Assembly: GCF_000384415.1 (NCBI RefSeq)
Contig: NZ_ARVU01000001.1
Location: 1-64,000, forward strand
Length of the DNA stretch: 64,000 nucleotides
From: Cycloclasticus pugetii PS-1
GTDB taxonomy: Bacteria > Pseudomonadota > Gammaproteobacteria > Methylococcales > Cycloclasticaceae
Direction: 5' to 3'
Position numbers and translations under genes: made by a program
Notes under the pieces: model-generated
Database searches by the model: none
What the model saw: the letters and a program-made list of their open reading frames with translations, nothing else
What the model was told of the DNA's origin: nothing
Shown here: piece by piece, positions 20,337 to 24,740 of the stretch
Position numbering within the stretch: the stretch's first letter is position 1
How the letters are laid out: the number at the start of each line of letters is the position of its first letter

Positions 20337-22403
20337 CTAACAAATTGATATATCAGCTATTTTAATAAAATTAGAGTGAATTTTGTTAAGCAAAGCCAAC
20401 CGCGAATGTTTAAGCTGTTCATCTTCGGCCATAATAAAAACGTGTTCAAAGAAATCATCGATGGGCGTTTTCAGCTTAGATAATACTTTTAGCGCTTCAA
20501 TATATTGTTGTTGCTCGATTAATGGATGAGTCTGTGTTTCGATCAGTTGTAATTGTTCATATAGGTAGATTTCTTGCTGATCGACTAAACGCGAGGCATC
20601 AAAAAGCGCGCTGACATTGTCCGGTGCTTTCTTTAATAAGTTTTGAATCCGTTTATTGGCCTCAGTTAAGCTCATAGCTTCGTCTAGTTTAGAAAAATCT
20701 TTGACCGCACGAATACGATTCATAAAATCTACAGGTCGAGTACAGTCAACAGAGGCAACGGAAACGAATTGCTCAGGAGAGTAATGATTTGACAAACAAT
20801 AGCCTTTTAAACGGTCGAGCATAAAATTTAAAACGAGCTCTTTGGTCTTATTTGCGTCAAACGTGTGGCTAAATTGCGCACAAGATAGGCTAATGAGTTC
20901 TTTTAGGTCAAGTTCGAGTTGACCTTCAATAATAATCCTTAAAATACCTAAAGAGGCGCGACGTAAAGCAAATGGGTCTTTGTCGCCGGTAGGTAATAAA
21001 CCGACACTGAAAATCCCCACAACGGTATCGAGTTTATCAGTAAGGGCAAGAAGTTGACCTGTTTTGCTGGTCGGTAGCACACCACCCGACTGTTTCGGCC
21101 AGTATTGTTCTTGTAAGGCTTCGGCGACTTCATCTGGTTCGCCATTTTCTTTGGCATAGTAACGGCCTATAACGCCTTGTAGGCTAGCAAATTCGCCAAC
21201 CATATCCGTTATCAGGTCTGTTTTACTGAGAAGTGCGGCGCGTGAGGCTAGTGCTGTATCACGCCCGAGTTGATCGGCAAGTTGAATAGAGAGTTTTTCA
21301 ACGCGACGAGTTTTTTCACCAATAGATCCCAACTTTTGCTGAAAAATGACGTTATCTAATGAGCTGATTCGTTCAGCAAGTGTCTTTTTCATATCTTGTT
21401 GCCAGAAAAACTCAGCATCGGATAAGCGCGGGCGAATAACTCGCTCATTACCATGACTAACAGAGCTTGGGTTGTTGCTATCAATATTACTAATGGTAAT
21501 AAAGTATGGAAGCAACTCGCCGTTCTCATCCAAAATAGGGAAGTATTTTTGGTTGATTTGCATGGTGGTAATGAGGACTTCTTTGGGGAGTGCTAAAAAA
21601 TGGTCGTCAAAACTACCTGTTACGGCAACAGGGTATTCTACTAATGCAGTAATTTCATCTAACAGGCTAGGTTCGATGTGCGCTTGACCATTGACCGCGT
21701 TAGCAGCTTGAATGGCTTGCTGTTCAATAAGGGCTTTGCGGTCTACAAAAGAAGCGATCACGTGGGCATTAGCGAGCTTTTCATTGTATTGGCTGGCCTC
21801 TTCAATGGTAATAGGGCCAGGTGCATGAAAGCGATGACCGAATGAAGTATTTGAGGCGTTAACAGCAAAAAATTGAGTATTAATGACCTCATCACCTAAG
21901 AGCAATAATACTGAATGTACAGGCCGTACAAATGCATCGTTAGAATGACCCCAGCGCATACGTTTTGCAATTGGTAAGCGAGTCAAGGCTTTTTCTATAA
22001 TGCTAGGAATAAGCGCTTTAGCCGATTGACCTTTTTCAAGCTTTTTATACGAAAGCCACTCGCCTTTATCTGTTTTCAGCGTGCCAAGGTCATCAAAATT
22101 AGTGCCACAACCACGTGCGAACCCTAAAGCAGCTTTAGATGGGTTGCCTTCAGCATCATAAGCAGCCGCTATAGCGGGGCCACGTTTTTCAACATGAATA
22201 TCTTCTTGAGTTGTTTCGAGTGCTTCTACCCATACAGCTAAACGGCGGGGTGTGGCAAAACTATGAGTACGAGTAAAACCTAATTTTGCCTCTTCAAGGC
22301 CACTGCATATTGCAGATAGCAGGTGGTCGCGTAAGGTTTTTAATGTTGATGGTGGAAGTTCTTCACAACCGAGCTCAAACAATAAATCTTTTGTTTCGGC
22401 CAT
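20337..22403 (-). CDS. glyS: Glycyl-tRNA synthetase beta subunit
   Basis: GlyS is the beta subunit of the bacterial alpha2beta2 glycyl-tRNA synthetase and binds tRNA-Gly. At 688 residues it matches the family; the start LLFELGCEELPPSTLK and the segments RRLAVWVE, TTMQINQKYFPILDENG and DPFALRRASLGILRII are characteristic. The ATG shares a base with the glyQ stop, so the two subunits are translationally coupled. Confidence 0.97.
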   Translation of the reverse strand: MAETKDLLFELGCEELPPSTLKTLRDHLLSAICSGLEEAKLGFTRTHSFATPRRLAVWVEALETTQEDIHVEKRGPAIAAAYDAEGNPSKAALGFARGCGTNFDDLGTLKTDKGEWLSYKKLEKGQSAKALIPSIIEKALTRLPIAKRMRWGHSNDAFVRPVHSVLLLLGDEVINTQFFAVNASNTSFGHRFHAPGPITIEEASQYNEKLANAHVIASFVDRKALIEQQAIQAANAVNGQAHIEPSLLDEITALVEYPVAVTGSFDDHFLALPKEVLITTMQINQKYFPILDENGELLPYFITISNIDSNNPSSVSHGNERVIRPRLSDAEFFWQQDMKKTLAERISSLDNVIFQQKLGSIGEKTRRVEKLSIQLADQLGRDTALASRAALLSKTDLITDMVGEFASLQGVIGRYYAKENGEPDEVAEALQEQYWPKQSGGVLPTSKTGQLLALTDKLDTVVGIFSVGLLPTGDKDPFALRRASLGILRIIIEGQLELDLKELISLSCAQFSHTFDANKTKELVLNFMLDRLKGYCLSNHYSPEQFVSVASVDCTRPVDFMNRIRAVKDFSKLDEAMSLTEANKRIQNLLKKAPDNVSALFDASRLVDQQEIYLYEQLQLIETQTHPLIEQQQYIEALKVLSKLKTPIDDFFEHVFIMAEDEQLKHSRLALLNKIHSNFIKIADISIC

Positions 22404-23320
22404 TACGGTGTCTCCTCAGTTTTTAGCATGGGGAAGCCTAGCGCTTCTCGAGAGGCGAAATATGTTTCAGCGACCATTTTAGAAAGGCTGCGGACACGTA
22501 AAATAAATCGCTGCCGTTCAGTCACAGAAATGGCGTGACGAGCATCTAATAAGTTAAAGGTATGCGAGGCTTTTAAAACTTGTTCGTAAGCAGGCAGCGG
22601 CAAACCTTTTTCAATTAAAAGGTTGCAAGCCTGTTCGCATTCATCGAATTGTTTAAACATGGCGTCTATATTGGCATGATCAAAGTTGTAAGCCGATTGT
22701 TCCACTTCATTTTGGTGAAATACATCACCGTAAGTAACGACACCCTTATTGGTCTTAGTCCAGACAAGGTCATACACACTTTCAACGCCCTGTATATACA
22801 TGGCAATGCGTTCTAGCCCATAGGTGATTTCGCCGCTAACGGGGCGGCAATCTAAGCCGCCGACTTGTTGAAAATAGGTGAATTGGGTGACTTCCATACC
22901 ATTTAACCAGACTTCCCAGCCTAAGCCCCAAGCACCTAAGGTAGGAGACTCCCAGTTATCTTCAACAAAGCGTATATCATGTTCAAGCATGTCTAAACCA
23001 AGATGACTGAGTGAACCTAAATATAAGTCTTGAATATCAATGGGCGATGGTTTGATAAGCACCTGAAACTGATAATAATGTTGTAGACGGTTTGGGTTTT
23101 CACCGAAGCGGCCATCGGTTGGGCGGCGCGAGGGTTGTACATAGGCCGTTGACCAAGGTTCAGGGCCTATGGCACGCAAAAAAGTGGCAGGGTGGAAAGT
23201 TCCAGCGCCCACTTCAAGGTCTAGCGGTTGAAGAATAGCACACCCTTGGTTAGCCCAATATTCTTGTAAAGCAAGGATAAGGCCTTGGAACGTCATAAGG
23301 TCTTGAGTAGATTTTGACAC
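22403..23320 (-). CDS. glyQ: Glycyl-tRNA synthetase alpha subunit
   Basis: GlyQ holds the catalytic site for glycine activation (class II synthetase). The GTG at 23320 is chosen because [17 protein letters not shown] then aligns without gaps to the start of other GlyQ proteins; an ATG at 23383 would add 21 atypical residues and an ATG at 23299 would be short. No good ribosome site supports any of them. Family motifs include [40 protein letters not shown] and ERIAMYIQG. 305 residues. Confidence 0.93.
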
Positions 23321-23444
23321 AGTAGTTTCGGCGGTTGTTTGAATAAAAAAGAGAAGTATATCTAATAAGCCTACACTTATCATTAAAGCAAGCTTAAATG
23401 CATAAGCTATTTAAGCATTTATACGAAACTTGAGGCCCTTTGGG

Positions 23445-23478: not shown

Positions 23479-24519
23479 ATGGCAACGCAACGTAAAGCGG
23501 TCGCACTGATATCAGGTGGTTTAGATTCACTATTAGCGGCAAAAGTTATGCTTGAGCAAGGGGTTCATGTAGAGGGTATAAATTTTTATACAGGGTTTTG
23601 TGTGGAAGGGCATACCCATGCAATTCGAAAAAAAGATAAAGCAAAACCGAAAAGAAACAATGCATTATGGAGCGCTGAAAAGCTAGGCATTAAGCTTCAT
23701 ATTATTGATATTATTGAAGAATATAAAGATGTTTTGCTTAACCCAAAGCATGGTTATGGCGCCAATATGAACCCTTGTTTAGATTGTAAAATCTTTATGG
23801 TGGGAAAAGCCAAAGAGTGGGCAGAAGAAAATGGCTTTGACTTTATTATTACCGGTGAAGTTATTGGTCAACGTCCGATGTCACAACGTAAGGAGACTAT
23901 GCCGGTAATTTCTGAAGAGTCGGGCGCGGATGATTTGTTATTGCGCCCTTTGTGCGCGCAAAATTTGCCAGAAACGCTGCCCGAGCGTGAAGGCTGGGTT
24001 AATCGTGACCAATTGTATGACTTTAGTGGGCGGACACGTAAACCTCAAATGGCGCTGGCTGAAAAATTTGGCTTTGATGATTACGCCCAACCTGCTGGTG
24101 GTTGTTGTTTCTTAACCGATAAAGCGTATTCCGTTAAGTTAACTGATTTATGGGCTTCTCGAGGCAAACGAGATTATGAAATAGACGACATTATGTTGTT
24201 AAAAGTAGGCCGGCATATTCGACCAAAACCAAACTTTAAATTGATAGTGGCTCGTGAAGAAGGTGAGAATAATTTCTTACAGGGTTATAAAAAGCAGTTT
24301 ATAACGCTAAGAACCATGAGTCATAAAGGGCCATTAACGTTGCTGGATGGAACGGCCAATGATGAAGACCTTAAACTAGCGGCACAAATTGTCGCACGGT
24401 TTAGTCAAGGTAGAGATGCAGAAACTGTTGATGTTGAAGTGACTGAGAACGGGGTTAATAAAAACTTTTCCGTAACGCCTTTAAAGGCGGATCAGATTCA
24501 AGATGCTTGGCGCGTATGA
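23479..24519 (+). CDS. PP-loop ATPase, MnmA/ThiI-like, with C-terminal NFACT-R-like region
   Basis: A 346-residue protein of the ATP-pyrophosphatase family that adenylates a substrate, in relatives usually a tRNA base, for thiolation. The PP-loop SGGLDS is at residues 12-17. Cysteines occur in PCLDCKIF (near 95) and AGGCCFL (near 211), which could bind a cluster or carry sulfur. From about residue 240 (RPKPNFKLIVAREEGENNFL) the sequence resembles the NFACT-R/DUF814 RNA-binding domain. It resembles proteins loosely annotated as tRNA thiouridylases, but it is not MnmA itself. AAGAGAAG is the ribosome site. The stop overlaps the TusA-like start in ATGA, suggesting a shared sulfur-transfer function. 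Confidence 0.72.
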   Translation: MATQRKAVALISGGLDSLLAAKVMLEQGVHVEGINFYTGFCVEGHTHAIRKKDKAKPKRNNALWSAEKLGIKLHIIDIIEEYKDVLLNPKHGYGANMNPCLDCKIFMVGKAKEWAEENGFDFIITGEVIGQRPMSQRKETMPVISEESGADDLLLRPLCAQNLPETLPEREGWVNRDQLYDFSGRTRKPQMALAEKFGFDDYAQPAGGCCFLTDKAYSVKLTDLWASRGKRDYEIDDIMLLKVGRHIRPKPNFKLIVAREEGENNFLQGYKKQFITLRTMSHKGPLTLLDGTANDEDLKLAAQIVARFSQGRDAETVDVEVTENGVNKNFSVTPLKADQIQDAWRV

Positions 24520-24740
24520 TAGAGCTAGATGCACGCCGGTTAATGTGCCCTATGCCGGTTATAAAAACGCAAAATATAATAAAGACACTGTCTTCAGGTG
24601 ATAAAGTAAGAGTCAGCTGTACAGATCCTGGTGTTATGCAAGATATTCCTGCTTGGTGTAGAATCAATGGACATACTGTTTTAAGCACAGAAGAAATTGA
24701 TCACGAATATATCCTAATTATCAAAGTTGGAAGCGATTAA
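24516..24740 (+). CDS. tusA: TusA-like sulfur carrier protein
   Basis: TusA-family proteins carry persulfide sulfur on the cysteine of a CPxP motif; here CPMP begins at Cys11. The ATG at 24516 overlaps the preceding stop in ATGA and gives 74 residues beginning IELDARRLMCPMPV, typical of the family; a TTG at 24507 is less likely. TusA normally feeds sulfur into tRNA 2-thiouridine, molybdenum cofactor or sulfur oxidation pathways; here its partner is likely the overlapping PP-loop ATPase. Calling it the housekeeping TusA is uncertain. Confidence 0.85.
   Translation: MIELDARRLMCPMPVIKTQNIIKTLSSGDKVRVSCTDPGVMQDIPAWCRINGHTVLSTEEIDHEYILIIKVGSD

Follow-up and report, generated by a model that had tools for sequence, protein, structure and literature searches.

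An NFACT-R-containing PP-loop ATPase and its TusA-like carrier in Cycloclasticus pugetii as a probable tRNA 4-thiouridine synthase in place of ThiI

The window analyzed here is a stretch of 64,000 nucleotides at the beginning of the Cycloclasticus genome, which is assembled as one contig of 2.38 Mb and is 99.99% complete. Two genes on the forward strand form the locus under study. The first (23479–24519) encodes a PP-loop ATPase of 346 amino acids with a C-terminal NFACT-R domain, as given by the open reading frame, the Pfam matches, and a structure model, and is proposed here to be a tRNA 4-thiouridine (s4U) synthase. The second (24516–24740) encodes a TusA-family sulfur carrier of 74 amino acids, as given by the open reading frame and Pfam. 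The stop codon TGA of the ATPase (24517–24519) and the start codon ATG of the carrier (24516–24518) share the four nucleotides ATGA, and an alternative start of the carrier, TTG, lies at 24507. The first-pass annotation had described a PP-loop ATPase whose stop overlaps the start of a CPxP carrier and a metal exporter directly following, and these positions are correct; the gene of the exporter, which is of the CDF family, begins 5 nt past the stop of the carrier. On the other side, divergent genes for the glycyl-tRNA synthetase subunits, named from their translations, occupy 20337–23383 of the reverse strand and start 95 nt before the ATPase.

The PP-loop motif of the ATPase, SGGLDS, is located at residues 12–17 (23512–23529), and SGGxDS is found in 115 of the 116 aligned homologues. 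A second, ThiI-like motif, TGExxGQxxxSQR, is located at residues 125–137 (23851–23889), and its core, GExxGQ..SQ, is found in all 116. These motif counts, and the cysteine counts below, refer to 116 sequences including one without its N-terminus (L108). The motif TG[E/D]xxxQxxSQT is present in 9 of the 9 ThiI proteins compared; the ATPase carries both motifs used to recognize ThiI, the SGGxDS PP-loop and TG[E/D]xxxQxxSQ. Its PP-loop part starts at residue 3, with no N-terminal NFLD/THUMP region as membership in ThiI needs. In the Pfam search, NFACT-R_2 (PF18297), a predicted RNA-binding domain, was matched at residues 244–345 (24208–24513) with E 1e-36 and 125.6 bits against a gathering cut-off of 26.9, ThiI was matched with E 2.9e-14, and the HUP domain of tRNA_Me_trans/MnmA with E 3.4e-10 and 40.3 bits, so that the MnmA/ThiI-type PP-loop and the NFACT-R-like C-terminus noticed in the first reading were both recovered. 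The score against the curated ThiI model (TIGR00342) was 51.2 bits for a cut-off of 264.5, where only the profile positions 171–314 were matched, and that against the MnmA model was 42.3 bits, below the cut-off of 284. The Pfam and NCBIfam scores lean to ThiI over MnmA; a profile of the ATPase family gives 33.0 bits for the MnmA of the same genome, above the nine ThiI proteins (12.3–28.8 bits). By sequence alone, ThiI and MnmA ancestry of the ATPase are not separable.

The structure of the ATPase was modeled using AlphaFold2 with 60 sequences (59 of the 80 nearest loci and the ATPase of this locus), which gave a mean pLDDT of 87.9. Residues 3–215 of the model match the ThiI-RNA complex 4kr6 with a Z-score of 14.8 over 169 residues (rmsd 2.8, 27% identity). 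The catalytic part also matches YcfA (residues 3–214, Z 15.2), LarE (residues 3–243, Z 14.1), and MnmA (Z 13.3), which are tied with ThiI. Residues 242–346 match the NFACT-R domains of FbpS (5h3w, Z 14.1, 103 residues) and RqcH (8s1u, Z 14.0). These two proteins share the fold of the C-terminal domain but have no PP-loop, and their role is in ribosome-associated quality control. In the full-length Foldseek alignments, the TM-scores by query are low, 0.27–0.38, as is expected if no solved protein combines both parts of the ATPase. As judged from the model, the catalytic half resembles ThiI, and a predicted RNA-binding NFACT-R domain stands where ThiI has THUMP.

Three cysteines of the ATPase are present in every one of the 116 aligned homologues: Cys100 and Cys103, which form a C-x2-C motif (23776–23787), and Cys210 (24106–24108). 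The model is less certain near these residues, where the mean pLDDT is 61 for residues 91–100 and 62 for residues 201–210. Of the other cysteines, Cys41 and Cys209 are each conserved in 111 homologues and Cys159 in 95; the two cysteine pairs mentioned in the first-pass annotation correspond to Cys100-x2-Cys103 and Cys209-Cys210. C-x2-C plus one further cysteine is the three-cysteine pattern of the [4Fe-4S] PP-loop tRNA thiolases. In this second class of tRNA thiolases, the cofactor is described as a [4Fe-4S] cluster bound by three cysteines with one iron open, and it is reported for archaeal synthases of s4U at position 8 (s4U8), TtcA, TtuA, NcsA, and some MnmA proteins (PMC10067955). The ATPase is probably [4Fe-4S]-dependent as well, with Cys100 and Cys103 as two putative ligands and Cys210 as the third.

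The known thiolases are encoded elsewhere in the same genome. MnmA is a separate gene at 1212216–1213313 (485.7 bits, cut-off 284), TtcA is at 549179–550042 (478.9 bits, cut-off 272), and TilS is at 1069670–1070998. The search of this genome with the ThiI model gave no match at E ≤ 1e-40. The presence of mnmA, ttcA, and thiI had been named in the first reading as a check, and the former two were found as separate genes while thiI was not. When the ATPase was used as the query against its own genome, it matched only itself and MnmA. A second gene of the TusA family is located at 2208643–2208873.

The carrier matches the TusA family (PF01206) with E 1.2e-22 and 79.9 bits for a cut-off of 28.6, and its score against TusA sensu stricto (NF001423), 48.9 bits, is below the equivalog cut-off of 78. 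TusA-type proteins carry persulfide; in the present carrier, Cys11 of the CPMP motif (24546–24557) is the candidate persulfide cysteine, and CPxP is present in 93 of the 93 TusA matches across the loci. Of the 80 nearest loci, 76 have a TusA gene immediately downstream of the ATPase in the same orientation. As for the other four, two (L037 and L071) have one 2.3–2.4 kb away, one (L076) has sequence that stops 0.5 kb downstream of the ATPase, and one (L077) has no TusA within 5 kb. Among more divergent loci, TusA is adjacent in 15 of 25 and not adjacent in 10; these 25 are the loci used for linkage and alignment out of 30 numbered ones, three having been left out for contig ends (L094, L107, and L115) and two as pieces of one broken gene in genome G346 (L114 and L116). 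A different class of the phylum contributed ten loci with 52–58% identity, 9 of which have TusA within about 0.7 kb downstream. The linkage between the ATPase and TusA, the conservation of which in other genomes had been proposed as a test of the pair, is more than chance.

The carrier appears not to be obligatory for genomes that bear the ATPase, hereafter the enzyme. When 16 such genomes were searched with a weak single-sequence query at E ≤ 1e-5, TusA was not matched in six (G242, G334, G050, G082, G277, and G346, the enzyme gene of the last being broken), and the sole match in another (G191) sits inside a frame of 826 amino acids. In a known thiolase, TtuA, sulfur is delivered to the cluster by the small carrier TtuB, and sulfide is reported to be used in species that lack TtuB (PMC7138817); this is a possible analogy for genomes that have the enzyme but no detected TusA. 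Five small genomes of 1.0–1.9 Mb (L109–L113, families f53 and f85) encode an enzyme of about 50% identity with no adjacent TusA, and four of them gave no TusA match at all in this search. In G346, the enzyme gene is in two pieces with an internal stop, which is likely a recent loss.

The distribution of the enzyme relative to ThiI was determined in two draws of genomes, with the enzyme counted at E ≤ 1e-30 and ThiI at E ≤ 1e-40 in the class draw. Among 370 Gammaproteobacteria genomes that are at least 90% complete, 187 have the enzyme, 29 have ThiI, none has both, and 153–154 have neither. The Fisher test gives P 4e-10 for this exclusion, a value that ignores phylogeny. The enzyme is present in 82 families and ThiI in 20, with none shared; about 64 families have neither gene, a count that rests on the family numbering of the genome set. 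Because no family is shared, a small number of replacement events may underlie the exclusion. In a draw of 150 genomes from the phylum, 33 have the enzyme, 54 have ThiI, none has both, and 63 have neither; 30 of these 33 enzyme genomes lie outside the class draw, and six genomes with the enzyme or ThiI are in both draws. One genome without the enzyme (G028) has a weak NFACT-R_2 match (2e-6), perhaps a decayed copy, and other genomes of its family have the enzyme.

RudS is an eraser of s4U in tRNA, built from a TudS domain and DUF1722. Its authors described RudS groups without ThiI, for which they suspected differently organized homologues of ThiI (PMC11417400). The Cycloclasticus genome encodes a RudS homologue of its own (680612–681556) with both the TudS and DUF1722 domains. 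Both domains were checked in this protein only; the other genomes were counted by DUF1722 alone, and some of their frames are short. With a threshold of E ≤ 1e-20, the genomes of the class draw with a DUF1722 match number 78 of the 187 with the enzyme, 15 of the 29 with ThiI, and 2 of the 154 with neither; at E ≤ 1e-5, they number 89, 15, and 2. A strong match is absent from 109 of the 187 enzyme genomes and 14 of the 29 ThiI genomes. In one of the two exceptions (G362), the contig starts with the 3' end of an enzyme gene followed by an overlapping TusA gene; with this genome reassigned, the counts become 79 of 188, 15 of 29, and 1 of 153. The other (G286) is a true exception, which has DUF1722 and neither gene; it is 94% complete, and the enzyme is otherwise present in its family. 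In the phylum draw, DUF1722 was matched at E ≤ 1e-5 in 16 of 33 enzyme genomes, 29 of 54 ThiI genomes, and 0 of 63 with neither (16, 24, and 0 at E ≤ 1e-15). At the family level, 47 of the 82 families with the enzyme and 10 of the 20 with ThiI have it, and no others do. In two ThiI genomes (G350, C2; G283, C25), the DUF1722 match lies at most 100 nt from ThiI on the same strand, which is gene-neighbor support for the link between eraser and writer.

The first reading had left the substrate open; the exclusion with ThiI and the co-occurrence with the RudS domain together point to 4-thiouridine in tRNA. The genome comparison and the structure model suggest that the two genes most likely put sulfur into tRNA in many bacteria without ThiI. 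More specifically, we assign a probability of about 70% to the reading that the pair is a tRNA s4U synthase, presumably for position 8 by analogy with ThiI, which replaces ThiI. The counts are most simply explained if, in genomes lacking ThiI, the s4U that RudS erases is made by the pair. The pair is also a good candidate for some of the RudS groups described without ThiI in PMC11417400.

The best surviving alternative, which we regard as unlikely, is an RNA thiolase for another site or base, in another tRNA position or rRNA, with the replacement of ThiI as a by-product of lineage history. NFACT-R domains are also known from proteins of ribosome quality control, RqcH among them, the profile scores of the ATPase family do not single out ThiI, and s4U is evidently not required by all genomes since 153–154 of the 370 have neither gene. 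However, such a thiolase does not agree well with the absence, from either draw, of any genome with both the enzyme and ThiI, or with a RudS domain that is enriched in enzyme and ThiI genomes and hardly found elsewhere, and s2U34 and s2C32 are already served by MnmA and TtcA here. Considerably less probable is that the ATPase thiolates a small molecule or cofactor in the manner of LarE or YcfA, or belongs to the sulfur trafficking of sulfur oxidation. The model fits YcfA and LarE as well as ThiI, and among the 80 nearest loci are several of sulfur oxidizers and their symbionts, but an NFACT-R domain has no place in such a role, the family also occurs in methanotrophs, in Cycloclasticus, and in about half of the class genomes, and the exclusion with ThiI would be left unexplained. 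The metal link raised by the first-pass annotation, in the form of a homeostasis module with the adjoining CDF exporter, is very improbable and was rejected as the shared function: of the 68 near loci (out of 80) whose sequence extends over 2 kb downstream, no more than 44 have a CDF gene nearby on that side and 24 do not, the gene listed next after tusA in G362 is glutamine synthetase, and shared transcription suffices to explain the proximity. The first reading had also named the possibility that the ATPase is the sole MnmA; in spite of the Pfam HUP match, its being the ordinary MnmA forming s2U34 is refuted for this genome, since MnmA is encoded elsewhere with a score more than ten times that of the ATPase and the ATPase has PCxxC where that MnmA has PDxxC.

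If the pair makes s4U, the reaction may proceed as follows. The TusA-like carrier, loaded with a persulfide by a cysteine desulfurase, would dock on the ATPase. The NFACT-R domain would bind the tRNA, the same job as that of NFLD/THUMP in ThiI, and the PP-loop would adenylate O4 of the uridine. The sulfur would be held on the open iron of the [4Fe-4S] cluster at Cys100, Cys103, and Cys210 and would then displace the adenylate. The core idea of the first reading, a carrier handing sulfur to an RNA-modifying ATPase, is well supported, and neither of the two findings named there as refuting it was obtained: MnmA is a separate gene, and the linkage is conserved. As a whole, its interpretation is partly supported, the metal link and the word "undescribed" being the weaker points.

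The claim of an undescribed pathway was too strong, as a similar one had probably been predicted. Burroughs and Aravind (RNA Biology, 2014) reportedly inferred in silico, on the basis of NFACT-R domains and TusA-like proteins, a pathway for the 4-thiouridylation of tRNA, with what is said to be the same domain combination and proposed product as in the present pair. Both the combination of the two genes and the product that it likely makes were thus probably predicted in 2014, and the count of the ThiI exclusion, the link to RudS, and the cysteine count come from the present analysis. In a literature search that had most subscription papers outside its reach, we recognized no experiments on the pair and no direct s4U data for enzyme-bearing species without ThiI.

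Compared with ThiI (TIGR00342), the ATPase has in common the PP-loop fold, the SQ-containing motif, the proposed product s4U, and the occurrence of the RudS domain in both kinds of genome. In contrast, it has NFACT-R with no THUMP/NFLD or rhodanese match, three invariant cysteines, and a separate TusA carrier, and it never shares a genome with ThiI in either draw. The archaeal [4Fe-4S] U8-tRNA sulfurase TtuI is similar in its proposed three-cysteine [4Fe-4S] chemistry leading to s4U8, but it is described as ThiI-type and sulfide-using (PMC9957541), unlike the combination of NFACT-R and a TusA carrier here. TtuA/TtuB, which forms s2T54, likewise joins a PP-loop [4Fe-4S] thiolase to a small carrier dispensable in some species, but TtuB is described as a ubiquitin-like thiocarboxylate carrier (PMC7138817).

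On balance, we lean towards the broader view that a non-orthologous s4U synthase, in which NFACT-R stands in for THUMP and a TusA carrier supplies persulfide to a [4Fe-4S] thiolase, is a major s4U-making system of Gammaproteobacteria, several times commoner there than ThiI, and accounts for RudS in genomes without ThiI. If this is true, a persulfide carrier would be joined to [4Fe-4S] thiolation, a combination not encountered in the literature consulted here. The s4U erasers in genomes without ThiI, left as an open question in PMC11417400, would be explained. Species scored as lacking s4U for want of ThiI would in fact make it, with the enzyme in 187 of 370 genomes of the class against 29 for ThiI.
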